This document shows positions 12,869 through 40,386 of a stretch of DNA of 55,781 bases, piece by piece. Made by a program: the position numbers and the translations under genes. A model generated the notes under the pieces. The model did not search any database, had not been told where the DNA came from, and worked only from the letters and a program-made list of their open reading frames with translations. The DNA is taken from contig JAFXDG010000048.1 of assembly GCA_017521285.1 (NCBI GenBank), positions 1 to 55,781 of the forward strand, given 5' to 3'. Source of the stretch: Bacteroidaceae bacterium (lineage in GTDB: Bacteria; Bacteroidota; Bacteroidia; Bacteroidales; Bacteroidaceae). Each line of letters starts with the position of its first letter. Positions within the stretch are counted from its first letter, which is position 1.

Positions 12869-12891
12869 TGCTATAAAAAAGGGAAACAGAC

Positions 12892-14202: not shown

Positions 14203-14226
14203 CCCACAAAAAAAACAACAAACCCT

Positions 14227-14778: not shown

Positions 14779-14792
14779 GGAGGGAGTGCGAG

Positions 14793-15098: not shown

Positions 15099-15112
15099 GG
15101 GTCTAAGGTCGA

Positions 15113-15469: not shown

Positions 15470-15494
15470 GAAACCTCGAAAATAACATAAAAAA

Positions 15495-15556
15495 AGAAGA
15501 CATAGGGACAGAGGGTATATTTATGCAAGAAACCCCAATGTCCCTATGCCTTCTTA
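15495..15556 (-). terminator. probable terminator downstream of glnA
   Basis: GAAGACATAGGGACA and TGTCCCTATGCCTTC form a long stem around a loop of about 30 nt, beginning about 30 nt after the glnA stop. A-rich sequence on the plus strand (T-run on the minus strand) lies at its distal end. Confidence 0.65.
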
Positions 15557-15586
15557 TAGGTCTGAATATAAAATGTCAACTTTTAT

Positions 15587-20626: not shown

Positions 20627-21613
20627 ATGTACATGCCATTCATTGTCATTGTCGGAGCTATCATTTTTATCTCCGTCTTTTTCCACTATGTGCCGTTCAT
20701 CCTGTGGTTGTCGGCCAAAGTATCAGGCGTAAACATTTCGCTCATCCAGCTCTTCCTGATGCGCATCCGTAATGTACCGCCATCAGTTATCGTGCAAGCC
20801 CTCATCGAAGCCCACAAGGCAGGCTTGAGCACCATCACCCGTGACGAATTGGAAGCACACTACCTGGCTGGTGGCCACGTTGAAAAAGTGGTACATGCAT
20901 TGGTGTCAGCTTCGAAAGCCAACATCGAACTCTCTTTCCAGATGGCTACAGCCATCGACCTTGCCGGACGCGATGTGTTCGAGGCCGTGCAGATGTCAGT
21001 TAACCCCAAAGTGATTGACACACCACCCGTAACCGCCGTAGCCAAAGATGGTATCCAGCTCATAGCCAAGGCTCGTGTAACCGTGCGTGCCAACATCCGT
21101 CAATTGGTGGGTGGAGCCGGTGAAGACACCGTATTGGCCCGTGTAGGCGAAGGTATCGTATCGTCCATCGGTTCGTCAGAAAACCACAAGAGTGTGCTCG
21201 AAAATCCCGACTCCATCTCCAAACTTGTACTCCGCAAAGGTTTGGATGCAGGTACGGCTTTCGAAATTCTCTCCATCGACATTGCCGATATTGATATAGG
21301 TAAGAACATCGGTGCTGCCCTTCAAATAGACCAAGCCAATGCCGACAAGAACATTGCCCAAGCCAAGGCTGAAGAGCGTCGTGCCATGGCCGTAGCCAGC
21401 GAACAGGAGATGAAAGCCAAAGCCGAAGAGGCACGCGCCATGGTTATCCAAGCCGAGGCCGAAGTACCCAAGGCTATGGCCGAAGCTTTCCGTTCAGGAA
21501 ACCTGGGCATCATGGATTACTACCGCATGAAGAACATCCAAGCCGACACACAGATGCGCGACAGCATTGCACATCCCGAAACCGGATGCTCTTGCGAACC
21601 ATTGGATAAATAA
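20627..21613 (+). CDS. floA: flotillin-like protein FloA
   Basis: 328 residues with a hairpin membrane segment near the N-terminus (about 3-30), an SPFH-type domain (about 100-230; [27 protein letters not shown]) and an Ala/Glu-rich coiled coil (about 230-285; [27 protein letters not shown]), which is the bacterial flotillin layout. It scaffolds membrane domains. It follows NfeD directly, the usual pairing. A GTG or ATG two codons later (20633) is an equally good start. Confidence 0.9.
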
Positions 21614-21737: not shown

Positions 21738-23222
21738 ATGAAAAAGAAAATCCTTACAACCATCTGTGCATGTGCCTTGTCACTGTTTGCCATAGCACAA
21801 GAAGCAACCCAGTCATCCAAACCAGCCTCCCTCCGCTTCGATTTTGGTGGTGGAGAAATAGCCGAAGGGTTCATTGGAGTTTCAGCTACAACGGCTTATT
21901 CCGAAATACAAGGCTATGGATTTGAGGACGGAGCCAACATTTCCGAAATCATCCGCACCCCGAAACGAAAGAAAGCCATAGACCCATTGGCCTACGACTT
22001 TATTACGAGCAATGATGGCACCCCTTTCCGCTTCTCAATCAAGCTACCCGAAGGAAATTACAAAGTAACCGTCACCTTGGGAGACAAGAACGGTACATCC
22101 AAGACTACCGTCAGAGCAGAAACCCGTCGCTTGATGCTCGAAAGTGCCACTACCGCCAAGGGCGAAATACGCAAAGAGAGTTTCAACGTCAACATACGTA
22201 CACCCAAACTTTCAGCCGGCAATGCCATCAAACTCGATTCACACGAATGGGATGCCAAGACAGGCACCATCAAAACCCTCACATGGGACGACAAACTGAC
22301 TATCCAATTCAACGATGAGCAACCGTGTGTATGCGCCATAGAGATTGAGCCATTGGACGAGGCCATCACTGTTTTCGTCATTGGTGACTCCACCGTTACC
22401 GACCAACGTTCGGCCGGCACATGGGCACAATACCTCCCCCGTTGGTTCAAGGGCAATGTCGTAATTGCCAACCATGCCGAATCAGGTCAGACTCTCAAGG
22501 GCTTCCGTTTCCAACGCCGATGGGACAAAGTGATGGAAAGTATCAAGGAAGGAGACTACCTGTTTATCCAACTGGGCACCAACGATGAAAAGAAGAGAGG
22601 GCACGACCCCATGTGGCCAGCCGATGACCATGCGGGTGATTGGATAAGGACTCACTCTGATGCTGAAACTGATTACATTTGGGAACTTGCCATCATGGCC
22701 GTCGAGGCACGTCGCCACGGTGTGACCCCCGTCATCGTATCGCCCATGAGCAAATTTGACCGTAGAAACCTGAAAGCCACCCACGTCATGGATGCTTACG
22801 GAAAGAATGCTCCCAAAGCCGCAGAATTGGCCCAATGCGCTTACATCGACCTATGGGGTATGAGCATTGACATCATCAATGCTGTAGGCGAAGATGCCCT
22901 GCACGTCTATTCCGATGGCACACACACCAACGATTACGGAGGCTATCTCTACTCGCTCTGTATCGCCAAAGGCATTAAAGAAAACGGACTTGACTTGGCC
23001 AACTACCTGGTTGATGACTTGATTGATATCGACCCCAAGAATCCCACTCCCCGATATGCCGACTTCACCGTCCCCATTGAGAAGCGGGCAGCCCCTCGTC
23101 AAAAGGGTGCCACTTCCATGGGATTTGCTGCAGAAGGATTGGCTCCCGGCCAACGTTTCCCCGGTGACACACAAGGCGAAGCCGAATACCGTGCGGCCCA
23201 AAAGGCAAAACAAAAGAAATAA
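21738..23222 (+). CDS. secreted SGNH esterase, rhamnogalacturonan acetylesterase type (CE12-like)
   Basis: 494 residues with a signal peptide ending AIAQ (about 20). Residues about 30-200 form a beta-rich, galactose-binding-like domain (LRFDFGGGEIAEGF, GTPFRFSIKLPEGNYKVTVTLGD). The SGNH domain follows: block I VIGDSTVTDQR with Ser218, block III LGTNDE, and block V DGTHTNDYG with the Asp-His pair. Such enzymes remove acetyl groups from pectic rhamnogalacturonan, outside the cytoplasm. The neighbours are not pectin genes, so its substrate is inferred from family only. The nucleoside phosphorylase gene follows after about 20-40 nt. Confidence 0.8.
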   Translation: MKKKILTTICACALSLFAIAQEATQSSKPASLRFDFGGGEIAEGFIGVSATTAYSEIQGYGFEDGANISEIIRTPKRKKAIDPLAYDFITSNDGTPFRFSIKLPEGNYKVTVTLGDKNGTSKTTVRAETRRLMLESATTAKGEIRKESFNVNIRTPKLSAGNAIKLDSHEWDAKTGTIKTLTWDDKLTIQFNDEQPCVCAIEIEPLDEAITVFVIGDSTVTDQRSAGTWAQYLPRWFKGNVVIANHAESGQTLKGFRFQRRWDKVMESIKEGDYLFIQLGTNDEKKRGHDPMWPADDHAGDWIRTHSDAETDYIWELAIMAVEARRHGVTPVIVSPMSKFDRRNLKATHVMDAYGKNAPKAAELAQCAYIDLWGMSIDIINAVGEDALHVYSDGTHTNDYGGYLYSLCIAKGIKENGLDLANYLVDDLIDIDPKNPTPRYADFTVPIEKRAAPRQKGATSMGFAAEGLAPGQRFPGDTQGEAEYRAAQKAKQKK

Positions 23223-24201: not shown

Positions 24202-24373
24202 GGGCGTTCATTGCACCTCTTCACACACCTTTGACTTAAAAATATCAAGAATCAAGTACTTTAAAAACTTCATACATTACCTTGTTCGGTATAATCAAAA
24301 CAGGCATTCCATATCGCGTTCCTCCAATGGTTAACAAACCATGATAATAAAGAAATACTATAGAACAAAGAAA

Positions 24374-24455
24374 AAAATGCGACTTGCATTTTTCAAAAAG
24401 CAAGTCGCATTTTCTGAAAAGCCAGTCGCATTTTAAGAAATGCAAGCCGCACTTT
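24374..24455. repeat. hairpin plus three direct repeats with an exact 21-bp period
   Basis: AAAATGCGACTTGC (24373-24386) and GCAAGTCGCATTTT (24400-24413) form a stem. The right arm repeats as GCCAGTCGCATTTT at 24421 and GCAAGCCGCACTTT at 24442, so starts are exactly 21 bp apart. On the minus strand the units read as heptapeptides of the form KC(D/G)xLF. The stem may terminate the minus-strand lipoprotein operon, whose last stop is at 24462. The rest of 24202-24461 shows no convincing gene. Confidence 0.75.
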
Positions 24456-24461
24456 TTTAGT

Positions 24462-25121
24462 TCAATTAACGGTACCTTCATATATATCGTTTTCACCCCA
24501 TGGACCAATACTTGCATCTACGCCACCACCTTTTTGCTTCACCGTAACCTGACAAGTGGCACTCTTGCCGCCTGCCGTGGCAGTGATGGTAGCGGCTCCT
24601 GCACCGATGGCCTTGACTGCTCCCGAAGAAGAGACGGTAGCTATTGAGGTATCGGAAGACTTCCATGTCACATCCTTGTCGGTGGCATTCTCCGGAAGGA
24701 CTTTCGCCGTAAGGGAATGACTCTCACCTACCGTCAGCGACAGTTCCGTGGATGAAAGCGTCACAGCGGTCACTTCTACAACATTTTCCTCCACTGTAAC
24801 CTGACAAGTGGCACTCTTGCCACCTGCTGTGGCAGTGATGGTAGCGGTTCCTGCACCGACGGCCTTGACTACTCCTGAAGAAGAGACGGTAGCTATTGAG
24901 GTATCGGAAGACTTCCATGTTACATTCTTGTCAGTGGCGTTCTCCGGAAGGACTTTCGCCGTAAGGGAATGACTCTCACCAACTGTCAGTATCAATTTGG
25001 TTTGTGACAAACGAACAGATGTCACTTCGATCGTCAACTCCGATTCATCGTCCCCTCCACAAGCGACAAAACACAACAAGACAAGTATCCATCCACACAA
25101 AAATAGAAAGATTTTTTTCAT
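24462..25121 (-). CDS. lipoprotein with two tandem BIG2 (bacterial Ig-like) domains
   Basis: 219 residues from the ATG at 25121. The signal peptide has lipobox FVAC followed by GGDDE, typical of Bacteroidales lipoproteins exported to the surface. Two BIG2 repeats of 84 residues each (VTVGESHSLTAKVLPENATDK, SSDTSIATVSSSG, ATITATAGGKSATCQVTV) are nearly identical. The C-terminal tail ASIGPWGENDIYEG resembles the last strand of fimbrillins. It is the last gene of the operon, 11 nt after the fimbrillin gene, and may be an adhesive or linker subunit of the same surface assembly (inference). Confidence 0.85.
   Translation of the reverse strand: MKKIFLFLCGWILVLLCFVACGGDDESELTIEVTSVRLSQTKLILTVGESHSLTAKVLPENATDKNVTWKSSDTSIATVSSSGVVKAVGAGTATITATAGGKSATCQVTVEENVVEVTAVTLSSTELSLTVGESHSLTAKVLPENATDKDVTWKSSDTSIATVSSSGAVKAIGAGAATITATAGGKSATCQVTVKQKGGGVDASIGPWGENDIYEGTVN
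24522..25025 (-). repeat. two tandem 252-bp copies encoding the BIG2 domains
   Basis: 24774-25025 and 24522-24773 are direct repeats, with long blocks identical at the DNA level (for example GACTTCCATGT flanks and the AAGGACTTTCGCCGTAAGG block near 24700 and 24950). This implies recent duplication or continuing gene conversion. Confidence 0.8.
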
Positions 25122-25132
25122 AGTCAATTGTA

Positions 25133-26008
25133 TTAGTTCCAATTACCTACACCACCGCCAATACTGATTTCTGCCTGTTGCGGATTCTCTGTAACAGTAA
25201 TGGTAATCGTGTGCTGATATCCTTGTTTGAAACTTATTGTTCCCTCCATCAGATAACTGATGTTACCCATGACAATTTCCACCAATGGGCGGCGAGTCGT
25301 GATATTCTGTGGAACAACAATAGCAACATAACGGTCTTTGGACAATTTCTGCATCTTGATGGACTGTGCACTGGCGTAAGCATCCTTGCAGGCACCACCT
25401 GCTGCCAAGTCAACGTTAGCTGTAGTGACAGTGTTGTGCAAAAATACTTCCATATTATCGGGAAGGTCTCCTTCAAAGTCCTTGCCCTTCACAATTTCCA
25501 CCAAGGCACGGCTCATCACATGACGGAACTTCAGACTGACAGGCGCTGTCCCTGCCTGTTGTCCTTCTGCTTTCGCCCACAGAAAGTCACTCAATGAATA
25601 ATTCTCAGCTATGCTTTGGTCGGTAAAGACCTTGAAGAGAAATGCTTCTGTGTCATTCACCTTCTCTGCATAGGGGTAATAAGCATAAACATTGTTCTTG
25701 CCTTCGTTCCAATAAAACGTACGCGATGGCGTCCACTTACTGCCATCATAAGAATAACGACCGTTGTTCACCGTGTTGCCAAATGGTTGGAGTATGGCAC
25801 CTTCCGGAACAACAAATACTCCGATTTGGTCTCCACTTTCAAAACCTGTACTTGTGGTACGAGTCTGCTGTGATGGGTAGATAGCCTCAATGCGGATTTC
25901 CTTTTCATTGATAGCCTTCTCCAAATTTTCATCATCTGAGCATGATGAGAATGCCAATGCAGCAAATGCGATGCTTACAAGTGGCAGAATGTTAGCGATT
26001 GATTTCAT
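25133..26008 (-). CDS. fimbrillin-family lipoprotein (Mfa-like)
   Basis: 291 residues with lipobox FSSC followed by SDDENLEK. The body matches the fimbrillin/Mfa_like pattern: TRTTSTGFESGDQIGVFV, NVYAYYPYAE, SLSDFLWAKAEG, SLKFRHVMSRALVEI, YVAIVVPQ and a C-terminal strand ending in GNWN. The same landmarks occur in the N-terminal third of the three large upstream proteins. Such proteins form fimbrial shafts or tips on the outer surface of Bacteroidales. Its start overlaps the stop of the upstream peptidase gene by 17 nt, implying coupled translation. Confidence 0.9.
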   Translation of the reverse strand: MKSIANILPLVSIAFAALAFSSCSDDENLEKAINEKEIRIEAIYPSQQTRTTSTGFESGDQIGVFVVPEGAILQPFGNTVNNGRYSYDGSKWTPSRTFYWNEGKNNVYAYYPYAEKVNDTEAFLFKVFTDQSIAENYSLSDFLWAKAEGQQAGTAPVSLKFRHVMSRALVEIVKGKDFEGDLPDNMEVFLHNTVTTANVDLAAGGACKDAYASAQSIKMQKLSKDRYVAIVVPQNITTRRPLVEIVMGNISYLMEGTISFKQGYQHTITITVTENPQQAEISIGGGVGNWN

Positions 26009-29000
26009 ATCTTCTTTCTTTTAGTTTCTTGAAAAATTGATTGTACTGACCACGTTTCAACATGACGGGAACGTTATGAGAGTGGATGGGTTGTAACTCC
26101 TGCACATTGTGTGCGGCACGAGTTCCATTTACCTCTGCACTTCCCCATTGGTCTGTGTCCACACTATAAAAGTCTCTTTCCATGTCGAACGGTTCTCCTG
26201 CCAAACTGAACACACGTCGTGTGATATCCAATCTGCTGATGGCATTATAATAAGGTACAGCATAGTTCATGCAACTGTTTGCTTCCGAACGCCATACTCC
26301 ACGGGTGTAGCCATAACCACCTTCAAAGACATCCACATAATTGCTGAAACGGGGGTCAAAAATCATGTCTGCCCAAGGCACATTAGCCGACAGTCCTGTT
26401 GTCGAGATATTGACATACCATCCTCTTGCATGGTAATCATTTATTGCATCTACCACACTACTGGGAACATACTTATTGGACACAATGGATTCGTCGGCCA
26501 GCTTTCCGAAGCCATGTCCGCCGGCTTCGTGCTGAATGATGCCGCGAGTGTCGTTGGGATAGGTACGGTCACTGGGTGGACAAACCGATATGGCAGAACC
26601 GTCATCATAGAAATATGTACATCCTGTATAGTCTGTCGTATTGGGTATCAATACAATCAGTGATTTCCACATGTCACCGTCCCAAAGCCAGCGGCCTGTC
26701 TGTCTGCCTGTCAGATTGCTTATATAGGCAAAAACCTTTTCTTCATATGGTATCAGTCTGGCTGGATAACCGCTGCAACAGCTCTCCTGTCCGGCAGTAA
26801 AGAATGTGCCGAATTTGGTATCTCGGGCAACATTCATCGTGTTCACGCCCGTTTCTTGACTAAGTGCCATACAAGCATAGACATCAAAATAATCGCGCAA
26901 CCGGTCGTATGGGGGCAGACCGAAGAAATATTCCATATCCTTGCGACAAAGTTCCAAGTAAGCCCCCGAAGCTATGCTCTCGGCATCCCAACCATCACCA
27001 ACGAAATACAGGCTGATACCGTTGCCTTTGCTATGTTTCTGCAATTGTACCAGTTGGTCTTCACCATATTCATACCCATACTGCGACAGCATACAATAGG
27101 TCTCCACGTCAGTTCCTTCAATCTGGAACACAATGCTGTCCTGACGCAATGACAAGCCGGATGGCAGCTCACTAAAGGTCGCGACAATCTCATTCTTCAA
27201 ACTTCCTTCCGTCTTCGAGAGTGTCACCCAGTCCGGTTGATGGGTAACTTTCCAGTTCCCATCGGCATTCAAAACGAGTGTTTGCTGACGAGGCGTAGCC
27301 AACGCACAAGCGTGTGCCGGCCGACAGACGAAGTTGCGATACTCTGTCAAACGGGTGAACTCACTCCATGTCCGGTTGTTTTTGTAGCGCTGCAGTCCTT
27401 CTTTAGGCACCTCCACATTTATCTGTGTTTTCACTACATTATTGAAAGCATAAGCATCAAGGTGAGGAGGAGTTGGGTTTTCGCTGACAATTGTCTTAAT
27501 ATACATATCGTTTGTAAACGCATCTGCCCCAATAGTCGTAATGTTTTTCGGAAGTACAACGCTGGTGATAAGCGGACAGTCTTGAAAGCATCGTTCAGGC
27601 ACTGTAACGATAGAGGAGGGTATCCTAATTTCACCGCTCAGATACTGACACCCCATGAAAGCCTCTCCTCCCAACAGCTGAAGTTTTTCTGGTAGGACAA
27701 TACTTGAAAAGTTATTACCCGTAAAGCTACCGAATCCGACTTCCCTCACCGTAGAAGGCAAAGCAAGTTCACCACGGAATTTACAATTCAAGAAAGCGCA
27801 TTCCTTGATGTTTGTTACACCCTCCTTTAATACCAGGTTGCCATCAAAAGAGCAATCAGCAAAGCAATGGGACAAAATGACTTTTATACCACTGGGAATA
27901 ACCAAATTACCCGTAAATCCACACCCAATAAACGCTTCACTACCTATTGACGTGAGCGACTCCGGCAATTCAAGTGTTCCAGATATATTATAACCGAAAG
28001 CATGGTCACCAATCTCTTCCAATCCTTCGGGGAATTTCAGTTCACCCTTTACGCCTCCCAATGCCAACCCTCCGATTTTTTTTAGTGTGGATGGAAATTC
28101 CACTCGAAACCCAACACTAGAATTAGCAGGATCAAATGCACCGTCTTGAATCTCTTCTAACCCTTCAGGAAATATCAATGTACCCACAATAGGTACTCCA
28201 CAAAAAGCAAACTGCCCGATGATTCGCAAACGGTCAGGCAAAACCAAATGAGAAATAAGTGCATCATTAAACGATCTCTCAGGAATACAGTCGTCATAAG
28301 AATCATTCTCATCATCAATAATCATGTCCTTCATATTCAAATTTTGCAGCATAGGCATATCTCCCATAAAACAAAGATCCTCGGCATTGACACGACCTGT
28401 GACCTTCAGGGAACGCACCTCCCGATAATCATACCCTTGTTTCTTCAACGTTTCACTGAACATTCCCGGAGTTTCCACATTGACGACAAGGTACTGCCTG
28501 ACAATGCCGTCGTGAAACTCTGCGTCATCAATCCACGCCGAAACGCTTTCACTTACCAACGTAAACGCATAGTCGCCCACCTCTTGCCGCTTATCCACTT
28601 TAATGGCAAATTTGTGCATTTTTCCCGACTGCAAGGTCACCATTTCCTCTTTTCTCAGCTTGTAGTTCTGGTCTCCCACGGAAATGGTCAAAATGTCGTT
28701 TCCTGCATTATAAGTCTTAGGTATCACAACGGCTCTATGGTCGGCACCATACGGCAAAGTGAAGATTGATGCATCACCTTGCCCTTCCGGTTCCACATAC
28801 CCTGTCTCCAAATTTATGGTAGTGGATGTTGCCGCATGATTTACCTGTACGTTCTTTGGTAAGGTGGCCCACTCCTTTTCATCAAATCCCTCCCCCATTT
28901 CCAATGTTACGGTCATTCCTGCCATCAGGTGTCTGAACGTCAGATTGATGGTACCGTCGTCGGGCAAAGCCTTCACACATTTGGCCCACAACAGGTCACT

Positions 29001-29495
29001 GGCCTCATATCCGCCAAGGCGTGTCGTTGTGGCTGTACGCTCCTGACGCGTATCGATACCAAACGTATAAACAGTTGGATTGTCTATGGATTCAACATAG
29101 GGATAGTACCCCACCACATCCACTGCTGTATGCTGATTTTTCCAATAGAGCGTTTTGCTGCTCGTCCATTTGACATTTGCCTCATCGTAAGTGAAAGGCT
29201 GATTATCAGCCCGCAGAGTGCCATCACTCAAAGACTCTGGTACATCAGCGCTGTAATCGGCAACAAAAATTCCGATGCGGTCACCGTCGGCAAAACCTGC
29301 ATCCGTAGCACGTGTCAATACGGGGTATTCCACATCGAACTCCATAGGAAAGGCTGTGTCAACACCGCCATTCTCCATCAGATCGTTTTCGCTGCACGAC
29401 ATCAACATGAGCGTAACAGCAATCAGGCTTATACCAACTTTTGTTGAAAAACGATAATATCTTGTCATCATATTTGATCTTTTTTCTGTTTTCAT
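25992..29495 (-). CDS. fimbrillin-like / BspA-LRR / BACON-like / M64 metallopeptidase fusion, paralogue C
   Basis: 1,167 residues. Lipobox LMSC (Cys about 34). Fimbrillin-like domain about 35-325 (RATDAGFADGDRIGIFVADY, ASDLLWAK, NLTFRHLMAGM, final strand SESVSAW). BspA-type leucine-rich repeats about 335-720 (LTSIGSEAFIGCGF-type units). BACON-like sandwich about 730-835 (LVLNADGNWKVTHQPDWVTLS). M64 peptidase about 850-1150, with zinc motif H989-E990-x3-H994 and LADE at 999-1002. M64 enzymes include the Clostridium IgA peptidase. The motif is intact, so activity is expected, on the cell surface. Its start overlaps the stop of paralogue B by 4 nt (ATGA). Confidence 0.85.
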   Translation of the reverse strand: MKTEKRSNMMTRYYRFSTKVGISLIAVTLMLMSCSENDLMENGGVDTAFPMEFDVEYPVLTRATDAGFADGDRIGIFVADYSADVPESLSDGTLRADNQPFTYDEANVKWTSSKTLYWKNQHTAVDVVGYYPYVESIDNPTVYTFGIDTRQERTATTTRLGGYEASDLLWAKCVKALPDDGTINLTFRHLMAGMTVTLEMGEGFDEKEWATLPKNVQVNHAATSTTINLETGYVEPEGQGDASIFTLPYGADHRAVVIPKTYNAGNDILTISVGDQNYKLRKEEMVTLQSGKMHKFAIKVDKRQEVGDYAFTLVSESVSAWIDDAEFHDGIVRQYLVVNVETPGMFSETLKKQGYDYREVRSLKVTGRVNAEDLCFMGDMPMLQNLNMKDMIIDDENDSYDDCIPERSFNDALISHLVLPDRLRIIGQFAFCGVPIVGTLIFPEGLEEIQDGAFDPANSSVGFRVEFPSTLKKIGGLALGGVKGELKFPEGLEEIGDHAFGYNISGTLELPESLTSIGSEAFIGCGFTGNLVIPSGIKVILSHCFADCSFDGNLVLKEGVTNIKECAFLNCKFRGELALPSTVREVGFGSFTGNNFSSIVLPEKLQLLGGEAFMGCQYLSGEIRIPSSIVTVPERCFQDCPLITSVVLPKNITTIGADAFTNDMYIKTIVSENPTPPHLDAYAFNNVVKTQINVEVPKEGLQRYKNNRTWSEFTRLTEYRNFVCRPAHACALATPRQQTLVLNADGNWKVTHQPDWVTLSKTEGSLKNEIVATFSELPSGLSLRQDSIVFQIEGTDVETYCMLSQYGYEYGEDQLVQLQKHSKGNGISLYFVGDGWDAESIASGAYLELCRKDMEYFFGLPPYDRLRDYFDVYACMALSQETGVNTMNVARDTKFGTFFTAGQESCCSGYPARLIPYEEKVFAYISNLTGRQTGRWLWDGDMWKSLIVLIPNTTDYTGCTYFYDDGSAISVCPPSDRTYPNDTRGIIQHEAGGHGFGKLADESIVSNKYVPSSVVDAINDYHARGWYVNISTTGLSANVPWADMIFDPRFSNYVDVFEGGYGYTRGVWRSEANSCMNYAVPYYNAISRLDITRRVFSLAGEPFDMERDFYSVDTDQWGSAEVNGTRAAHNVQELQPIHSHNVPVMLKRGQYNQFFKKLKERRYEINR

Positions 29496-32400
29496 TTGCT
29501 TACTGGACGTTCAGGTTCCGACGCGGAAATAAGAGGTGCATGTCCATGACGAGGTGCACTCACAAAAGTGTGAATCTGCTGAGAACTGCGTGTCGGTTTG
29601 GTGAAATCCTGTCCCCACTCACGACTGTCATTAGCCGCGAATTCATCAAAACTGAAAATTTCGCCTGCCAACATTTTGATTCGTCTGACGATGAGTTCAC
29701 GACACCAGGTGCTGTAATACGGCACATTGTTGTTCATGCAGGAGTTCTGTTCTGAGCGATAAACTCCTCGAGAGTGAAAATAACCACCTTCGTAAATATC
29801 CGTTATATCATTGAAGCGATTGTCGTTGATAAGATGTTTCCAAGGCACACTGATGTATTTGCCGTCCAATGACAGGTTTTCTCCCCAACCCTGGGCCTGC
29901 ATCTGCATAAGGTCGTCAACATGTTCGCAACAGTTACATCTACATGTCTGTATCCATGCAAGATGATATATATATTCATCGGCCAGTTTTCCAAATCCGT
30001 GACCACCGGCCTCGTGCTGCACCAGACCGCGTGCATCGTACGGATACTCTTCTTCGCTCTTCGGACAAAGGGCCACAGCTGCGCCTCCTCGTGCTCCGGG
30101 CCACATCTGTGTGATTCCATCATATACGGTTGTGTTGGGAGTTAGCACACAGGTCAGGGCATCTATATCTGACTCATCCACTAGTGTATGGTCAACGGCA
30201 TAGAAGAGTGCCGCATCAAAATCGGTACTCATGCGCCCCGAAGAAGAGACCGTCATAGTATTGAACTTCACATCACGGAGTGTATTCAGCGTCCCGATGC
30301 CACTTTCATAGCTCATGGCAAAGGCTGTATAGACATTGAAATAGTCACGATAGGTTTTGTAAGGCTCCGCATCGAAGAAATACTCCACCTGTTGTTTCAT
30401 GTCCGACAAATAGACACCATCAGCAATATCCTTGGCATCATAGCCGTCGCCGATGAAGACAAGATTGATGCCTTTACCATTTTGGGCCGTCTGGAGCGTC
30501 AGGGAGGTATCCTCGTCATACGGACTGTCATACTGTTCAATCTTATAGCAGGTGGTGTAGTTGTCACCATCAAGGCAGAACACAATGCTGTCCGCCCGGT
30601 TTTCACTGCCTTGAGGCAAAGCATCAATGGTCACTGCGAGTTTGGTTTTCTGCTGTCCTGACGTTTGGGAGACATGTGCCCAGTTAGGACAATGAGTCAC
30701 CGTCCATGCTCCATCTGCATTCAGGACGATGTCACGCACATTACCCTTGTTCAATAAACGCGCTCTTTGCGGGCGACACACGAAGTTGCGATATTCGGAA
30801 ATGCGTTTGAACTCTCCCCATCCGGGTGCATTCCTGTAAGCATCGACACACCCTTGGGGAACAACAAGTGTGAAATTGTCTTTAGCCACACCGTCAAAAT
30901 GTCCACTTCCTTCTAAAACAGGAGGCGTTTCCGACAGACACTGCAAATAATCCAAACTGAAGCAGTTTCGGAAACAGTTTTCTCCAATGGACAGCAGATT
31001 CTTAGGCAATACCACTGCCGTCAGCTTCTCACAACCTTCAAAGGCATTCAAAGCGATGTGATTCACCTTAGATGGGATGACTACCGTATCTATCAACTCC
31101 TTACAGCGGGAAAAAAGCCCTTCGGGTATTTCTTCAAAATTGTCTGGCAAATAGACATGCTTGAATCCTGTTTGGGCAAATGCATAACGCTCAACGATGG
31201 TAACGGTTGATGGCAACACCAAATCTCCATCGAAAGGATATAAATCGTTAGATTGTGGTGACAACTGAGATTCATAGAGTACCTGTATTCCCGAGAAAGC
31301 TGCAGCACGTATGGTTTTCAATCCTTCATGGAGTGTCAATGAACTGAATCCTGTGCGGGCAAAGGCTCCAATCCCAACCTCTGTCACCGAAGCCGGTACA
31401 TCGAGATTTCCTTTCATTCCCATATTTTCATAAAAACATTTACGTCCTATTGTGGTAAGGTTCTGAGGAATTCGGAGTTCACCCGTAATGCCTGTACACG
31501 ATTCAAAAGCAGCATCTCCCAAATAGTCTATTTTTTCGGGAAACGACAGTTCCTGTTCGATAGGGCATCCGGCAAAAGCACTGGTACCTATATGTCTTAA
31601 CGTAGATGGAAGACTGATGCGGCGTATCGTATGGGTATACCAAAGACCGTCACCTCCGTAACCATAAGAACCATTGACACCGATATTATCGAAAGCCCTA
31701 TCACCCACATAACTCAAACCTTCAGGTAGAATTATGTCGTGGCACAAACTTGTCCCCCTGAAAGCCAAACGACCTATTTTTTTCAGATTGTCGGGGAATA
31801 CGATATATTTTAATGTTGGCATCCTCCTAGCCCCCCATTGTTCATAGAATGCGTCATCGGGAATCACATCGTTTTCCATTTGCCCTTCTATGAAGCATCC
31901 AACGGTTTTGACCTCCTTCAAATTAAGTGCTTCCAAAAATGTAAGATAGGACAACATGAATCGGAAATCGTCATTATTGATGACACCCGTCAACTTCAGG
32001 TTGGTGATGTCTTTGTAATTCAAGCTTGCCTCATCCAATGCCGCCTTCAATCCGCCAGCCTGTGGCACATGGACTGTGATATATGCCTTAGCTTCTGCCT
32101 GATGACTTACAGCATCATTTTCCCATGCCACCACAGACTCACTGACAAGGATGAACTCGTAATCACCCTTCTCGCGTTTATCAACTTTGATAGCAAACTT
32201 ACTGAGTTTACCCGCCTGATAAACGGTTGTCTCCGAGCGGATGAACGAATAGAGGTCGCCGTCAATGACTATCTGAATTAGCTCTTTACCTGCATCAACA
32301 GTCTGTGGCACCACCACACAGCGCCACTCATTGCCATTGCGATACGGGACGATGGAGGTCAAAGTGTCGGTATCATCTGCCGTCACCACCCCTGTCTGAA

Positions 32401-33031
32401 GATTGATGTGCGAACTGAGTTTAGTATTTGTTACCGCAACAGCCTTGTCAAGTGAAGCCCATTCGCCATTGAACCCCTCACCTTCAATGAGTGACAGCTG
32501 AATGCCGGCCATCAGGTGCTGGTGATGAAGAATTATAGGAGACAGCGGTTGTACCCCAGTGACCTTCGCCCAAAGGAAATCACTCTTTTCGTAACCTCCA
32601 AGCAACTCTCCGGTAGTGCCCTTGTCCTGACGATGTTCCACCACAAATGGAATGGATGTTACATCGCTGACAGATTCCACAAAAGGATAATAACTATAGG
32701 CATCAACGGAAGTCTTTTTATCAGTCCAATAGAGGTGGGTAACACTCGACCAACCATCCTGACTGAGGGTGAATTTCACGTTGTCGGCATGATTACCGCT
32801 ATTTGCCAATGCACAAGGTTTCCCATCCTTATAATCGACCACATAGATGCCAATGGCATCGCCCATGGCAAAACCGGTATCATTCACGCGGGTAGCATAT
32901 TCCTGCTGGATGTTGGCCTCTACCTGCATTTCATGCCGGTTGACAGGCTCACTCATAAGAGCCTCATTCTCGGAGCAACCGATAAATAGTACGGAGACCA
33001 ATACACTTAAAAAAGCAACTCTGTATTTCAT
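29492..33031 (-). CDS. fimbrillin-like / BspA-LRR / BACON-like / M64 metallopeptidase fusion, paralogue B
   Basis: 1,179 residues with the same four-part order as its neighbours. Signal and lipobox FIGC (Cys about 19); fimbrillin-like domain about 20-320 (VNDTGFAMGDAIGIYVVDY, KSDFLWAK, SESVVAW); leucine-rich repeats about 335-735; BACON-like about 745-845 (IVLNADGAWTVTHCPNWAHVS); M64 domain about 855-1165. The zinc site is intact: H1006-E1007-x3-H1011 and LADE ending at E1019. A cysteine cluster CRCNCC follows the zinc motif. It lies 14 nt after paralogue A and overlaps paralogue C by 4 nt. Confidence 0.85.
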   Translation of the reverse strand: MKYRVAFLSVLVSVLFIGCSENEALMSEPVNRHEMQVEANIQQEYATRVNDTGFAMGDAIGIYVVDYKDGKPCALANSGNHADNVKFTLSQDGWSSVTHLYWTDKKTSVDAYSYYPFVESVSDVTSIPFVVEHRQDKGTTGELLGGYEKSDFLWAKVTGVQPLSPIILHHQHLMAGIQLSLIEGEGFNGEWASLDKAVAVTNTKLSSHINLQTGVVTADDTDTLTSIVPYRNGNEWRCVVVPQTVDAGKELIQIVIDGDLYSFIRSETTVYQAGKLSKFAIKVDKREKGDYEFILVSESVVAWENDAVSHQAEAKAYITVHVPQAGGLKAALDEASLNYKDITNLKLTGVINNDDFRFMLSYLTFLEALNLKEVKTVGCFIEGQMENDVIPDDAFYEQWGARRMPTLKYIVFPDNLKKIGRLAFRGTSLCHDIILPEGLSYVGDRAFDNIGVNGSYGYGGDGLWYTHTIRRISLPSTLRHIGTSAFAGCPIEQELSFPEKIDYLGDAAFESCTGITGELRIPQNLTTIGRKCFYENMGMKGNLDVPASVTEVGIGAFARTGFSSLTLHEGLKTIRAAAFSGIQVLYESQLSPQSNDLYPFDGDLVLPSTVTIVERYAFAQTGFKHVYLPDNFEEIPEGLFSRCKELIDTVVIPSKVNHIALNAFEGCEKLTAVVLPKNLLSIGENCFRNCFSLDYLQCLSETPPVLEGSGHFDGVAKDNFTLVVPQGCVDAYRNAPGWGEFKRISEYRNFVCRPQRARLLNKGNVRDIVLNADGAWTVTHCPNWAHVSQTSGQQKTKLAVTIDALPQGSENRADSIVFCLDGDNYTTCYKIEQYDSPYDEDTSLTLQTAQNGKGINLVFIGDGYDAKDIADGVYLSDMKQQVEYFFDAEPYKTYRDYFNVYTAFAMSYESGIGTLNTLRDVKFNTMTVSSSGRMSTDFDAALFYAVDHTLVDESDIDALTCVLTPNTTVYDGITQMWPGARGGAAVALCPKSEEEYPYDARGLVQHEAGGHGFGKLADEYIYHLAWIQTCRCNCCEHVDDLMQMQAQGWGENLSLDGKYISVPWKHLINDNRFNDITDIYEGGYFHSRGVYRSEQNSCMNNNVPYYSTWCRELIVRRIKMLAGEIFSFDEFAANDSREWGQDFTKPTRSSQQIHTFVSAPRHGHAPLISASEPERPVSK

Positions 33032-33045
33032 AAATTCTTCCTATT

Positions 33046-36000
33046 CTACTGTGGTAATCCTTCTCTGCTGTCCCTGCTGACAAATTTCTCGAAAGAATAA
33101 GTTTCGCCAGCCAGTTCCATGATGCGGCGTACAATAAGTTCGCGGCTTATGGTATTGTAATACTGGATATAAGTATTCATGCAACTCTGTGATTCGGAGC
33201 GGAAAACCCCACGGGCGTGGTAGTAACCTCCCTCAAAGACATCCACAATGTCACTGTAGTTCGGTTCAAAGATAAGGTGGTTCCACGGAACCATACTCAT
33301 TGCGGCAGTGAGCGATATGTTACCATACCACCCCTTGGCACGCCCGGTGTAGTATTCACTGATCCTGTTACACATTGGGCATGTACATGCCTTGATGAAG
33401 TCTTGATGCTCCACGCCCTCGTCTGCCAGACGTCCGAATCCCTTTCCTCCGGCATAGTACTGTACCAGACCGCGTGTGTCGTATGGATAATCAAACGGAC
33501 TCTCCGGTATGAAACTGACGGTCAGTCCGTCGTCGAAGATTTGTGTATGACCACTAAAGGTGTTCCGATTCATGGCAATGAGCACAAGGGCGTTGCCTAT
33601 ATTTTCATCGCTGACAACCGCCGACACACTCTTTACATACCGACGCAGTGCATCGTAATCACATCGGAGGCCGCTGTATGGGTCGTCGGTCGTGTTGAAC
33701 TTGTTTATGACAGGTGTCTGTACACTGGAAATCCCTTCCTCGGGTGAAACAGCCAACGCAGTCGTAACCGTGAAATAGTTACGGTAAGTTTTGTATGGCT
33801 CTATAGCAAAGAATTCCTCCATACGTTTCTTCACCGTCTCCAAATAGGAGCCTTCTGCAATCTGCTTTGCCGTAAAACCGTCCCCCACAATAAACAAGGG
33901 AATTTCTCGGGTCCCTTCGGTGGCTTTCTGAAGAACTATTTCCTTATCTTCTGCTTCCTCTGCTATGTATTGCGATACATGGCAAGTGGTCTGATACCCT
34001 GAACCATTCAGACTGAACACGATTTCTCCCTCACGAGGAGAGTCGGATGCATCAACCTTGATGGTAATTTCAGTGGTACGTACATCACTCGTGGTCTGGG
34101 ATAGATGACACCAAGTCGGGCATTCCGTCACTTCCCATTCTCCTTCGCTCCTAACCACCATGTTGCGGGTAATGCCTTGATCAAGACAAGATATCTGCCC
34201 CACACTTACCGCCAACTCGTGATAAGCGGTGATGTACTTGAAATCGCTCCACCCTGTGGCATTACGATACTTGTTGACCGATTGCTCGGGGACTTCCAAT
34301 ATGACGTGATCCATATCGCACCAGGCAAAAGTGTTGCCCTCAGCTGTGGGTGGTTCAGGATTCAGACAAGTTACATTTCTTAAGGCACGACATCCTTCAA
34401 AGGCACTACTACCAATAGATTCTACGTACTTGCCAATTTTCACGGTAGTCAAATCTTCACAATATGCAAAGGCATCTGCTTCAATGATTTCGGTATAGCC
34501 TGAGATATTCACCGAACGGATGTTGGTGCCAACGAACGCAGAACTCGACACTCGCGATATATGCAAAGGTAAATTCAAATTTTCTGGTAGGTTCTTGGAA
34601 CCAGCGAAAGCCGCTGCTCCTAAAATAGACAAACCATCAGGAAGATTTTCCATACCTCCTCGAAAATTGCAACCAGAGAATGCATCAGCACCTATGCTGA
34701 CAAGACCAGCCGGCCAAACGATTTTGTTATTAAATTGGTTACCGCTAAATGCACTATTGTCGATACGTACCACCTTGTCGTGAAACGTCAGGTTTGAGCC
34801 ATTAGCAAAATTCATGTGGCTAAAAGCGCCGGACGATACAACTGAAATAGACGTTGGGATATTGATTTCTCCTTCTATGTTTTTACCATAATCAGGAAAA
34901 CATTCCTCACCGATGTATTCCACAAATTCGGGCAGACGGAAATATCCCGAAGAATGATTTGCAGACATGAAAGCTCCATCACCAAGATACCATATATTGT
35001 TGCTGAGAGGAACATTAAAAGTACATCGATTCTCAGACAGTGCAAAGTCTCCAATGTATTCAAGTGAATCAGGAAGAATCAGATTCCCCTGAACTATTTC
35101 CATCAAACAACCATAACCAAGCACCTTGACGCCATCTGGAATAACTAATGTTGAATTATGGGCCAAACCTATCCTAGACAATGCGAAAAAACCAATGATT
35201 TTCAAATGTTTGGGAAGAACTAGATGATTGAGTTCAGTCATACCATTAAGCGCATGGTCGGGTAATACATTACGGCTAAATTCCTCATAAGAACCTCCTT
35301 TTTCTACTACATAATAATCATAGGTCGTTGTTTCATAAATATTGAGTGATCGTAGCTGGCTGAGCGATGTGCGGATATATTCAAAATCCCCACCGTTCAA
35401 ATTCCCAATAATTTTTAGATTGATGATTTCCTGAGGATTCTTGCCAGTTTGGGATATACAAGCCTCTAAAGTACCCTCTACGGGGCAATGGACGATGGTA
35501 TAGGCAGCTGCCTCAAAATTGTGAGAAGAATTGTCGTTCTCCCAAGGCTCGATATCCTCACTCACCAAACTGAGCGAGTAGTCCCCAACTTCTTTCTTGT
35601 CTATCTTCAACATAAAGACATGCATCTTTCCCTGTTGCAGTTTCGTTGCCTCTTCGCGTACATATTTATAAGATACACCATCAATGGTTACACCAATGAG
35701 TGATTTACCTTCAGCGACAATCTGAGGAATAGTGACAGCACGGTATATGTCATCATCCTGCGGAGCAGCAATGATGCTCTTTCCGTCGGTCTCTAATGGT
35801 GTGGCAACGCCGGTACTCAGGTTGATGTGAGCCGAAAGGGCCGTATTCTCAATGGTTACAATACGCGCCAACTTGTTCCATTCTTCACCCGCAAAACCAG
35901 TTCCCTGCTGCAGTACTACCTTTAAGCCTGCCAAACGATGCTCAAAGTTGAGATAGATCAGTTTGTCAGTTGGCTGCACCTTGGTCTCTTTTGCCCAAAG

Positions 36001-36459
36001 GAAGTCACTTTTCTCGTAACCACCCATCGTTCCGTCACCACCTACGGTACTCTGGTCAGCCTGAACAGAAAAAATATGTTCGGTCACTGACTCCATGGCA
36101 TTATCGTAAGGATAATATCCATAAACGTCGATAGCAGTCTGACTGTCTTTCCAATAAACAGCATGATTACCCTCCCAACAGTCAGAAGCATTGAGAGTAA
36201 GCGCATAGTTGTTGGCACGATTGTCACGCACCATGAGAGTACCAGGTTCGCCGTTCTGATAATCTACAATATAGATACCCATCTGGTCGCCAACGGCAAA
36301 GCCTGCATCATTGGCACGAGTGAGATTCAGCTGCTCAATGCTACCAGACAGGAGTATTTCTTGTTGGGACATCCCCTGACCATCCACCAACGCATCGTTG
36401 CACGACGAGAAACATCCCGCAACGGCTATGGCTGACAAAAACGATAGAAACTTTTTCAT
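33046..36459 (-). CDS. fimbrillin-like / BspA-LRR / BACON-like / M64 fusion, paralogue A, with degenerate zinc motif
   Basis: 1,137 residues, first gene of the operon. Signal with VAGC or FSSC lipobox (Cys16 or Cys20); fimbrillin-like domain about 20-310 (ANDAGFAVGDQMGIYIVDY, KSDFLWAK, SEDIEPW); leucine-rich repeats about 340-735; BACON-like about 745-835 (MVVRSEGEWEVTECPTWCHLS); M64-like domain about 840-1137. Where the paralogues have HEAGGH it reads YYAGGK (1001-1006), so both zinc histidines and the catalytic glutamate are lost while the surrounding GFGRLADE is kept. The open frame is otherwise intact, so this is a probable pseudoenzyme, perhaps binding without cutting. A C-T-C-P-M-C cysteine motif follows. 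Confidence 0.85.
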   Translation of the reverse strand: MKKFLSFLSAIAVAGCFSSCNDALVDGQGMSQQEILLSGSIEQLNLTRANDAGFAVGDQMGIYIVDYQNGEPGTLMVRDNRANNYALTLNASDCWEGNHAVYWKDSQTAIDVYGYYPYDNAMESVTEHIFSVQADQSTVGGDGTMGGYEKSDFLWAKETKVQPTDKLIYLNFEHRLAGLKVVLQQGTGFAGEEWNKLARIVTIENTALSAHINLSTGVATPLETDGKSIIAAPQDDDIYRAVTIPQIVAEGKSLIGVTIDGVSYKYVREEATKLQQGKMHVFMLKIDKKEVGDYSLSLVSEDIEPWENDNSSHNFEAAAYTIVHCPVEGTLEACISQTGKNPQEIINLKIIGNLNGGDFEYIRTSLSQLRSLNIYETTTYDYYVVEKGGSYEEFSRNVLPDHALNGMTELNHLVLPKHLKIIGFFALSRIGLAHNSTLVIPDGVKVLGYGCLMEIVQGNLILPDSLEYIGDFALSENRCTFNVPLSNNIWYLGDGAFMSANHSSGYFRLPEFVEYIGEECFPDYGKNIEGEINIPTSISVVSSGAFSHMNFANGSNLTFHDKVVRIDNSAFSGNQFNNKIVWPAGLVSIGADAFSGCNFRGGMENLPDGLSILGAAAFAGSKNLPENLNLPLHISRVSSSAFVGTNIRSVNISGYTEIIEADAFAYCEDLTTVKIGKYVESIGSSAFEGCRALRNVTCLNPEPPTAEGNTFAWCDMDHVILEVPEQSVNKYRNATGWSDFKYITAYHELAVSVGQISCLDQGITRNMVVRSEGEWEVTECPTWCHLSQTTSDVRTTEITIKVDASDSPREGEIVFSLNGSGYQTTCHVSQYIAEEAEDKEIVLQKATEGTREIPLFIVGDGFTAKQIAEGSYLETVKKRMEEFFAIEPYKTYRNYFTVTTALAVSPEEGISSVQTPVINKFNTTDDPYSGLRCDYDALRRYVKSVSAVVSDENIGNALVLIAMNRNTFSGHTQIFDDGLTVSFIPESPFDYPYDTRGLVQYYAGGKGFGRLADEGVEHQDFIKACTCPMCNRISEYYTGRAKGWYGNISLTAAMSMVPWNHLIFEPNYSDIVDVFEGGYYHARGVFRSESQSCMNTYIQYYNTISRELIVRRIMELAGETYSFEKFVSRDSREGLPQ

Positions 36460-36615: not shown

Positions 36616-36623
36616 CAAAAGTA
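36616..36623 (-). promoter_or_regulatory. -7 box (TACTTTTG) of the five-gene surface operon
   Basis: The minus-strand reading TACTTTTG matches TAnnTTTG about 157 bp before the paralogue A start, implying a leader of about 150 nt. No clear TTTG is seen at -33; a short repeat (GAACGAAGAGTGAAGAGTG, 36638-36656) occupies that region. No second promoter is evident within the operon. Confidence 0.45.
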
Positions 36624-37171: not shown

Positions 37172-38038
37172 TTATTTGAAATGCAATTCGTAAGCGGGCT
37201 TGGAAGAAGAGGTGGCGGATGAAGAGGAAGAGGTATTCCCCACCTGGTATTTCTTCTTTATCTTGGGCAATTCACTCTGTATCTCCTTGATGCGTTTGGC
37301 ATCACTGGGATGGGTACTCATGAATTCAGGTATCTGTGCACCATCAGCTGACATCTTTTGCCAAAAGCCGATGGCCACATCAGGATTGTATCCGGCTATA
37401 GTCATCAGGATAAGTCCCATGTAGTCGGCCTCCAGCTCGTGCTTACGCGAGAAGGGAAGCGAAAGACCATACTGGGCACCCAAGCCATAAACCTGGGCAG
37501 CCATACTCTGCACCATCTCGCTCTTTTGTGACACGGCGGCACCCAAAATCTGTGCTCCATATTCGGCCAGCATCTGTTGGCTCATGCGCTCGTTGCTATG
37601 CTTGGCCACGGCATGAGCCACTTCGTGACCTACCACCACGGCCAATTCATCTTCCGACTCAACAAGATTCATCAAGCCCTCGTACACTACAATTTTTCCA
37701 CCGGGCATACAGAAAGCATTCACCTGTTTGTCGTTTACCAAATTGAACTCCCATGCAAAATTGGCCAATTCGCTCTCCAATCCATTCTGACGGAGATACT
37801 GGTCGGTAGCCGCGGCTATGCGTTTTCCCACCCGTGTAACCATGGCGGTGCGCGAAGCATTGGTCGAACGCGGAGCCGTGCTCATATAGCTACTATATTG
37901 GGTAAGACTGGACGAGAGCACTTCCTGATCACTTACCAACAGAACTTGCTTGCGTCCGGTGATAGGCACCGTACCACACCCGACACACAAAAGGGCGGCA
38001 ACAAGAAGGGACAAAGTTGTCTTTTTCATCATCTTCAT
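37172..38038 (-). CDS. M48-family metallopeptidase lipoprotein
   Basis: 288 residues with a lipobox CVGC (Cys21). The zinc motif H138-E-x2-H142 (GHEVAH) and the downstream HELEADYMG glutamate are intact; a Ser-rich tail (about 270-282) ends the protein. This resembles periplasmic M48 proteases such as LoiP/BepA-like quality-control enzymes that act on outer-membrane proteins. The start ATG overlaps the stop of the upstream barrel gene as TGATG, implying coupled translation; an ATG at 38029 is an alternative start. Confidence 0.9.
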   Translation of the reverse strand: MKMMKKTTLSLLVAALLCVGCGTVPITGRKQVLLVSDQEVLSSSLTQYSSYMSTAPRSTNASRTAMVTRVGKRIAAATDQYLRQNGLESELANFAWEFNLVNDKQVNAFCMPGGKIVVYEGLMNLVESEDELAVVVGHEVAHAVAKHSNERMSQQMLAEYGAQILGAAVSQKSEMVQSMAAQVYGLGAQYGLSLPFSRKHELEADYMGLILMTIAGYNPDVAIGFWQKMSADGAQIPEFMSTHPSDAKRIKEIQSELPKIKKKYQVGNTSSSSSATSSSKPAYELHFK

Positions 38039-38961: not shown

Positions 38962-40386
38962 TTATTTTACTTTTCTTTTCCAAAGGACAAACCACACCAA
39001 CCCGATTACGGTACATACTCCACCAATGGCGTATCCCCATGCGGCAGGCAATGCAAGCCCTTCGGGAGCCATACAGATGTAAGTGGAGCAGACACACGTC
39101 ATCAGCAAAGCAGGAAGCAGGGTGATATAGAAATTCTTCTTTTTCAAGGTCAGATACACGGTAATGGCCCACAGGGTGAAGACGGCCATCGTCTGGTTAC
39201 ACCAGGCGAAGTATCGCCAGATGATTTTGAAGCCATTAGCATCAGTAAGACTATACACCAAGATAGCGATGGTTACGGCAAACAAGGGGAGGCAAATCAT
39301 CAGCCGGTTGCGAATCTTCTTCTGGTCAAAATGGAGGAAGTCGGCCATGATGAGACGAGCCGAACGAAGCGCCGTATCGCCACTGGTGATGGGAGCTGCC
39401 ACAATGCCCAAGATGGCCAAGATGCTTCCGAAAGTGCCCAACCAATCTTTTGATATCTGAGTGGCTACCGCCGCACCCGAATAAGCCTTGCCGGTCAGTT
39501 GGTCAACAATGCCATTCTCTTGAAAGAAATAGGTGGCTGCTGCAGCCCAGATGAGCGCCACAATACCCTCGGCCACCATGGCTCCGTAGAAGATGGGGCG
39601 ACCATGCTTCTCGTTCTCCATGCAACGCGCCATCAAAGGCGACTGGGTGGCATGGAAACCACTGATGGCTCCACAGGCAATAGAGATGAACATCATGGGA
39701 AAAATGGGGTTAGCATCGTACTTTGTGCCAAAGCCCTCCCACATCTCGGGCAATTCGGGCGACTTCACATAGAGCATCACCAGAATGCCCATCGCCATAA
39801 ACAAAAGAGCCGCGGCAAAGAGCGGATAGATGCGACCGATAATTTTATCTACAGGCATCAATGTTGCCAACACATAGTAGAGGAAGATGATACACATCCA
39901 AAATATAAAATCAAGCGAAGCTGGAGTCATCCCCGCCAACAATTCGGCAGGCCCCGACACGAACACGGCCCCTACAAGCACCATCAGAATCATGGCAAAG
40001 ACACAGAAAATATTTTTTGTGCGTCCTCCCAAAAAACGGCCGACTATTTCGGGCAGACTTTCACCTCCGTGACGGATGGAGAGCATACCGGAGAAATAGT
40101 CGTGGACAGCACCGGCAAAAATGGTGCCAAGCACAATCCACAAGTAAGAAGCCGTACCGAACTGGGCACCCATGATGGCACCAAAGATAGGGCCAAGACC
40201 TGCAATATTGAGGAACTGGATCATGAATATCTTCCAGTTGGGCAGACGAATGAAATCGACCCCGTCGGCCTGTGTGATGGCCGGTGTCTGGCGGTTTGCA
40301 TCAGGGGCAAATACTCTCTCCACATAGCGGCCATAGATAAAATAGCCACCTATCAGCAGCAATAAAGCTAAGGTAAATGTAATCAT
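38962..40386 (-). CDS. cstA: CstA-family carbon-starvation transporter
   Basis: 474 residues with about 12-14 membrane helices. The conserved CstA segments are present: DGVDFIRLPNWKIFMIQFLNIAGLGPIFGAIMGAQFG near the N-terminus, HDYFSGMLSIRHGGESLPE, and FHATQSPLMARCMENE. CstA proteins import pyruvate or peptides. It is shorter than E. coli CstA (about 700 residues), as is common in Bacteroidales. A -7 box on the minus strand lies at 40415-40422. Confidence 0.9.
   Translation of the reverse strand: MITFTLALLLLIGGYFIYGRYVERVFAPDANRQTPAITQADGVDFIRLPNWKIFMIQFLNIAGLGPIFGAIMGAQFGTASYLWIVLGTIFAGAVHDYFSGMLSIRHGGESLPEIVGRFLGGRTKNIFCVFAMILMVLVGAVFVSGPAELLAGMTPASLDFIFWMCIIFLYYVLATLMPVDKIIGRIYPLFAAALLFMAMGILVMLYVKSPELPEMWEGFGTKYDANPIFPMMFISIACGAISGFHATQSPLMARCMENEKHGRPIFYGAMVAEGIVALIWAAAATYFFQENGIVDQLTGKAYSGAAVATQISKDWLGTFGSILAILGIVAAPITSGDTALRSARLIMADFLHFDQKKIRNRLMICLPLFAVTIAILVYSLTDANGFKIIWRYFAWCNQTMAVFTLWAITVYLTLKKKNFYITLLPALLMTCVCSTYICMAPEGLALPAAWGYAIGGVCTVIGLVWFVLWKRKVK

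Follow-up and report, generated by a model that had tools for sequence, protein, structure and literature searches.

What does a bacterium build on its surface when it joins pilin domains to peptidases? The question is raised by a five-gene locus of a Bacteroidaceae bacterium (assembly GCA_017521285.1, contig JAFXDG010000048.1), found in a stretch of 55,781 nucleotides that is hereafter called the window. Genes A, B and C encode fusion proteins, F a stand-alone fimbrillin and G a Big_2 lipoprotein. Judged by its sequence, the locus appears to belong to a widespread family of fimbrillins that bear peptidases; its M64-like zinc motif is unusual, its triplet is ordered and has one dead member, and it includes a candidate modular anchor. 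We think it rather probable that the operon encodes a surface system akin to type V pili with enzymes as tips, in which A, B and C would form the tip, F the stalk and G the anchor. Three features add to a preliminary description of this DNA: A has a destroyed zinc motif, the motif reads HExxxH in B and C, and G ends in a fimbrillin-type tail.

Architecture and distribution of the operon

Five intact open reading frames (ORFs) follow one another on the minus strand from 36459 to 24462, in the order A-B-C-F-G. Gene A (33046..36459, minus strand; 1137 residues) encodes a lipoprotein with a fimbrillin domain (16-323), leucine-rich repeats (LRR, 324-745), a BACON domain (746-830) and an M64 domain (833-1134) that Pfam and motif comparison identify as a pseudo-peptidase. 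The domains of B (29492..33031, minus strand; 1179 residues) stand in the same order, at 15-320, 321-746, 747-833 and 836-1140, as do those of C (25992..29495, minus strand; 1167 residues), at 30-338, 341-718, 719-805 and 808-1118. HExxxH is intact in both; C has DES in place of DEY and is devoid of a Cys cluster. F (25133..26008, minus strand; 291 residues) is a fimbrillin lipoprotein and a candidate stalk pilin. G (24462..25121, minus strand; 219 residues from its ATG), a lipoprotein with two Big_2 repeats by Pfam and a fimbrillin-type C-terminal tail by tail profile, is a candidate anchor. Successive genes are spaced by +14 (A-B, the largest gap), -4 (B-C), -17 (C-F) and +11 nt (F-G, counted from the ATG of G; -10 from the upstream TTG, its start in the ORF list). 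These coordinates confirm the single tight unit, with overlaps of 4 and 17 nt and gaps of 11-14 nt, that had been described before, and A-B-C-F-G very likely constitute one operon.

Mfa_like_1 is matched at E 1e-44 to 2.5e-47 in the three fusions and at 3.6e-56 in F, and LRR_5 at 5.9e-38 to 1.7e-50 in A, B and C. Peptidase_M64 (PF09471) scores 49.8 bits in A, 52.2 in B and 30.2 in C, all above the cut-off of 26 (E from 3.3e-7 in C to 6.4e-14 in B). The BACON model (PF13004, cut-off 25 bits) is passed by A (29.5) and by one relative, the single-copy orthologue L131 from Bacteroides acidifaciens DSM 15896 (34.9; loci of relatives bear L numbers); B (17.2), C (14.3) and the B gene of L158 (24.6) lie below it. 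We assign a BACON domain to B and C because both align with A and with orthologues. No model of NCBIfam is matched above its cut-off by any of the five proteins. The N-terminal fimbrillin part gives profile matches to the solved chains 4k4k (E 1.9e-14), annotated as a 'putative cell adhesion protein', 4eps, 3t2l and 4dgu (up to E 1.4e-3). Altogether, Pfam bears out the proposed series of three tandem fimbrillin/LRR/BACON/M64 fusions, a fimbrillin and a BIG2 lipoprotein, with BACON above cut-off in A only. The fimbrillin landmarks listed in the preliminary description are real and vary slightly: SDFLWAK in A, B and F is SDLLWAK in C, and the final strand reads SEDIEPW in A, SESVVAW in B and SESVSAW in C. 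The LRR_5 repeats recall BspA-type surface proteins, with solved relatives 4fs7, 4gt6 and 6mlx; unlike there, the LRR here lies inside a four-part lipoprotein fusion.

For the main sample, named genomes were scanned with two short peptide patterns, and the best 80 of 333 relatives of the window's B were kept. One pattern contains HE..G[HT], which may have left single copies with a dead motif under-represented. Contigs of metagenome-assembled genomes (MAGs) make up many of the loci, L108 and L162 come from one genome, and copy counts omit same-genome duplicates (L070/L111, L076/L118, L079/L128, L072/L149 and others). We rejected uniqueness of the fusion to this genome, as relatives occur in genomes of the same family as well as in the scanned loci. 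In that family, 54 of 301 genomes hold a relative of the M64 part of B at E <= 1e-15. Whole-genome searches with a BACON-M64 profile, in which few candidates per genome were scored, find matches at E <= 1e-10 in 40 of 247 genomes of the order and 36 of 395 of the phylum, mostly weak and mostly HExxH. The preliminary description proposed a search for the operon elsewhere. That the four-part fusion is special to this operon is not supported: such clusters occur in all 80 kept loci and in other genomes of the family, and the fusion is conserved in many Bacteroidales, where the loci examined mostly carry one copy of it. Some loci hold it only as broken pieces or pieces cut by the contig end; in L167 it is split inside the contig.

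Counted whole or in pieces, M64-bearing genes are single in 57 loci, double in 4 and triple in 19. Single loci usually read fimbrillin, fusion, fimbrillin, often with an LRR protein of ~480-750 residues next. In Butyricimonas synergistica (L160) two genes intervene, for a WG-repeat lipoprotein and a protein with no Pfam match; this downstream stretch (12230-16566) encodes the WG-repeat lipoprotein, the ~320-340-residue protein and an LRR protein, and similar genes are seen in L131 and L141. The triplet form is A-B-C-fimbrillin, often with a second fimbrillin, and a ruminant gut site (goat, sheep, roe deer, water deer, yak, water buffalo) is named in the titles of 9 of the 19 triplet records. 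The genome of triplet L108 also carries a single-type locus, L162. The window's own genome has further fusion and fimbrillin pieces near contig ends, L087 (G000:C63, 11044-13161) and L081 (G000:C24, 1898-3942), which may be one single-type locus split by assembly. We found no description of this fimbrillin/LRR/BACON/M64 cluster in literature searches that covered few subscription papers, by which its absence is unproven.

Pilus-like features and the tail of G

According to the passages available of a recent review, type V pilins are lipoproteins trimmed by a clostripain and joined through a C-terminal donor, the anchor retains its lipid, and a tip pilin with a C-terminal ligand domain, a stalk pilin and an anchor pilin are distinguished. 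The accessible part of a study of P. gingivalis Mfa1 gives the same scheme, with doubt as to which end is the donor (PMC5954841). The operon shares with this FimA/Mfa1 class the Mfa_like_1 domain, lipoprotein precursors as predicted by sequence, a conserved Arg near the domain start, a tip-like fusion with an extra C-terminal part, and a C-terminal strand motif. It differs in that its C-terminal part is an LRR-BACON-peptidase of more than 800 residues, that there are up to three tip-like paralogues, and that its anchor candidate can do without a fimbrillin domain (Big_2 or Pro/Asp/Glu-rich); the system is known here from genes alone.

In the mechanism we propose, A, B and C would be lipoprotein pilins: once trimmed at the conserved Arg R48, the N-terminal fimbrillin of each would take up the C-terminal strand of the subunit that follows. 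F would be the stalk (or adaptor) pilin. As anchor, G would have a lipid at its N-terminus, a spacer of Big_2 repeats, and a C-terminal tail that serves as donor strand. At the tips, LRR and BACON would serve for binding, next to the M64 domain. B would be an active peptidase that uses HExxxH as its zinc site, and C a variant whose substrate gate has changed. A, a pseudo-peptidase in which the domain is retained, would probably bind substrate and leave it uncut.

We infer pilus assembly, cleavage at the Arg and the stalk and anchor roles from the following features. R48 is invariant in all 95 aligned fusions. With a looser pattern, the position near the domain start is Arg in 108 and Lys in 4 of 116 fusions, Arg in 74 and Lys in 4 of 80 F-type proteins, and Arg in 35 and Lys in 9 of 57 tail fimbrillins (partner fimbrillins with a tail like that of G). 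A lipobox-like Cys, defined by a pattern of our own, occurs in 112/116, 76/80 and 56/57 of them, respectively. The fusions fit a tip position: Arg 48 is invariant, and a large effector part occupies their C-terminus. The preliminary view of the fimbrillin part as a module for assembly or display is supported.

The tail of G, GGGVDASIGPWGENDIYEGTVN (24465..24530, minus strand), is a candidate donor strand. Partner fimbrillins elsewhere end in a similar tail, for instance SGGINVSIGGWEDSGEDFGGTVN in L121. A profile trained on 59 fimbrillin tails was run on 2833 ORF C-termini of the fetched loci with a threshold of E < 0.01. It returned 83 matches: 77 fimbrillins, training rows included, and six other proteins from five distinct genomes (L070 and L111 being one genome), all six adjoining fusion genes. 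Shuffled C-termini gave no match at the same threshold. The five distinct non-fimbrillin proteins are the window's G (E 1e-4), one in L107 with two Big_2, one in L108 of 638 residues with seven Big_2, one in L111 of 203 residues, rich in Pro/Asp/Glu and without a Pfam match, and one in L158 of 317 residues, also without a Pfam match and with a fimbrillin-like stretch. Since the window, L107 and L108 are closely related on the tree, their Big_2 bodies may stem from one event, and the body of the L111 protein would then be a second. Exactly one tail match is present in 65 of the 80 scanned loci and none has two. For an anchor with a donor strand one expects just this, one tail shared by different bodies, and G is by sequence a candidate modular anchor, its tail kept and its body exchangeable.

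The same proteins could instead form a surface peptidase complex without a pilus, in which A, B, C, F and G are all lipid-anchored and sit side by side via their fimbrillin domains, with A as scaffold or regulator of B and C. The frequent lipobox-like Cys in fusions and F-type proteins is in keeping with this, as is the role of pseudopeptidases as regulators or scaffolds of active cousins, described in the passages available of one source (PMC11266112), in which M64 goes unmentioned. However, a conserved Arg at the trimming position and a tail kept on differing bodies are predictions of strand exchange, and co-anchoring needs neither; we regard such a complex as unlikely.

Several observations weigh against the pilus assignment, or against parts of it. 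Fifteen of the 80 loci have no tail match; in 11 of these the contig stops within 300 nt of the fusions on one side or both, and L115, L128, L132 and L176 have more room on the contig and still none. As an aside, in the L115 and L128 triplets the protein directly upstream of A ends in a type IX secretion system (T9SS)-like stretch. The tail protein of L158 is perhaps no case of a swapped body, but a fimbrillin that has diverged. Of the 57 tail fimbrillins, 44 keep Arg or Lys near the domain start, a pattern that suits a processed subunit no less than an anchor. Finally, A, B and C retain the last fimbrillin strand, which could itself be a donor, and might lie within the fibre instead of at its tip.

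The HExxxH motif and the dead copy

Motif alignment places the destroyed zinc motif of A, YYAGGKGFGRLADEG (YYAGGK), at 33415..33459, and the HExxxH motifs of B, HEAGGHGFGKLADEY, and C, HEAGGHGFGKLADES, at 29972..30016 and 26487..26531, all on the minus strand. Both zinc-motif His are lost in A; the earlier notion that all three copies cut is not supported. Between the zinc His pair, B has one more residue than 3p1v and 4df9 (HEFGHSFGGLADEY), two M64 enzymes of solved structure to which it was aligned. The canonical M64 motif HEXXHXXXGXXD is found in none of A, B and C, the last two being HEXXXH. By sequence, we therefore place B and C in a divergent branch akin to M64, and A in that branch as a pseudo-peptidase, rather than among ordinary members. 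They share with known M64 peptidases (ThomasA IgA protease; B. fragilis BF3526, PDB 4DF9/9QDI; B. ovatus 3P1V) a PF09471 match above cut-off and the same order of HE..H..D and YEGG...R...MN, and most of the domain aligns to 3p1v and 4df9. They differ in the HExxxH in place of HExxH, in a deep branch of their own, in the BACON before the domain and in the dead copies.

Among 58 loci from the order and phylum searches, 49 carry HExxH only, 8 HExxxH only and one both, the second motif there being probably due to chance. We built a tree of 84 M64 domains with the motif columns removed (30 HExxxH, 51 HExxH, 3 dead), by a quick method with SH-aLRT support only and a long-branch warning for L223; one of 72 loci, L224 with HExxxH, gave no row. 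A branch with support 100 separates 34 rows (30 HExxxH, 3 dead and the HExxH of L222) from 50 HExxH rows. On this tree the HExxxH domains appear as a deep branch of M64 of their own. The L222 protein (G892:C4:335704-336552; HEMGHAFAFLADEY) is a close relative (E 9.8e-56) that has HExxH and yet lies on the HExxxH side; reversal and an intermediate state are both possible.

According to a 2025 survey (PMC12402451), proteins across its M64 clusters keep HEXXHXXXGXXD, apart from a protozoan cluster that lacks these residues and from variants with Glu for Asp in two others. The HExxxH branch does not follow this rule. Among the literature matches listed, no work pairs M64 with HEXXXH.

Is the longer motif compatible with catalysis? 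The whole branch, HExxxH included, could consist of non-catalytic binding modules, A having merely drifted further; the deviation from the motif that the survey calls characteristic, and a clade (A) that is mostly without the ligand, are in line with this. Against it, H, E, H and D are all intact in the 57 single loci and in the 19 scanned B copies, which is not expected of free drift. Besides, M49 dipeptidyl peptidase III (DPP III) has a zinc motif that is likewise one residue longer, HEXXGH, whose two His coordinate zinc, and it is catalytic, as far as the consulted part of the source goes (PMC5667867). M49 is another family with another third ligand, and the parallel is one of motif only. 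A wholly non-catalytic branch seems to us quite improbable, and we infer that HExxxH supports catalysis.

In the solved structure of BF3526, by the survey's available text, the DEY stretch provides the third zinc ligand and also, together with three Cys, binds a second zinc; its Tyr sits on a loop that closes the active site (PMC12402451). The preliminary description suggested immunoglobulin or mucin as a possible target; the one Bacteroides M64 assayed in that survey, BF3526, left intact IgA1, IgA2 and IgG1 uncut. The DEY Tyr is kept in 19/19 B and 57/57 single copies, in 3/19 A and in 0/19 C, and a C.C..C cluster just C-terminal to the motif in 18/19 B, 55/57 single, 17/19 A and 0/19 C. Because C has lost both elements, whose roles are known from BF3526, it may by analogy be a peptidase variant with an altered substrate gate.

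Counting a domain as intact when HExxxH is present, all 20 triplets (19 scanned and the window) have exactly one M64 domain without it, and in 19 of 20 this is the first gene. Dead M64 domains are found in none of the 57 single and none of the 4 double loci. In a 98-row tree without motif columns (29 of the 57 single copies used, two short C rows omitted), A is one clade (20 rows, support 100) with labels from four families; the double locus L155 contributes its first gene to the B set (96) and its second to the C set (99). A, B and C are clear orthologous sets, and the A-B-C order is therefore old, the ligand having been lost early or more than once within A. Two Butyricimonas MAGs have a second fusion copy with DED or DET for DEY (L125, 12257-15685; L157, 4560-8000); these form a pair with support 100 outside A, B and C.

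The dead domain itself appears to remain under constraint. Across six related triplet pairs, pN/pS of M64 is 0.12-0.33 for A, 0.12-0.27 for B and 0.08-0.24 for C (Nei-Gojobori; the ratios are rough, as synonymous sites are often saturated). In most rows the LRR and fimbrillin domains vary more than M64, except for the L111/L112 A pair, where M64 (0.33) exceeds fimbrillin (0.15). Frames are intact and full-length in 16 of 20 A copies, broken in two and cut by contig ends in two (L121, L159).

So regular a pattern has its counter-examples. L108 has its dead domain in the third gene (REAGGFGFGKLANEA), with an intact first gene (HEVGGHNFAYLGDES). In L159 and L155, the C-type genes carry Glu at the expected third-ligand Asp. 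The frame of A is broken in L107 (two ORFs) and in G003/L111 (in-frame stop), by either decay or assembly error; single-type copies are broken as well, in L167 and G008. That A is a decaying gene without function, as its broken frames in 2 of 20 genes and the zinc-ligand positions varying among its copies could indicate, is very improbable given one clade across four families, 16 intact frames and an M64 about as constrained as those of B and C. The pairing of intact and dead enzyme copies suggests instead, on sequence grounds, a division of labour between cutting and binding.

Genomic surroundings and significance

Immediately 3' of the G stop, a repeat search reveals a terminator-like inverted repeat (24371..24458, minus strand) with 42-nt arms that are 79% complementary; it is absent from the list of a fixed terminator scan. 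Sigma-70-like and terminator-like sites are no more frequent than in shuffled sequence. Upstream of A, ~700 bp precede the next gene. There, TACTTTTG (36616..36623, minus strand) weakly resembles what we take to be the Bacteroides -7 box consensus; the two-box promoter pattern, as we presume it to be, has 3 matches in the window against 0.93 expected by chance, and none upstream of A. This region also holds two short-range inverted repeats (27- and 25-nt arms, 10-nt loops) and a 12-nt pair 369 nt apart. A phase-variable, invertible promoter was looked for upstream of A, and we do not claim these repeats as an invertible element. The window contains no Rfam match at gathering thresholds and no tRNA by ARAGORN. 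The operon's neighbours, at 20627-21613, 21738-23222, 37172-38038 and 38962-40386, are ordinary by Pfam: FloA flotillin, a GDSL-type esterase, an M48 peptidase and CstA.

Our wider proposal, which we advance tentatively and at somewhat less than even confidence, is that gut Bacteroidales make a class of enzymatic type V pili: their tip peptidase would have an HExxxH site new to M64, the triplet would mix cutting, modified and non-cutting tips, and anchors with exchangeable bodies would dock by a short donor-strand tail. The tail would then offer a sequence handle to find anchors that have no fimbrillin domain. The pairing of intact and dead paralogues would be a natural experiment on what pseudo-peptidases are for. 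If the proposal is true, a widespread gene cluster of gut bacteria gains a testable function, and the pili of Bacteroidales would be more than adhesins, able to hold an enzyme away from the cell.

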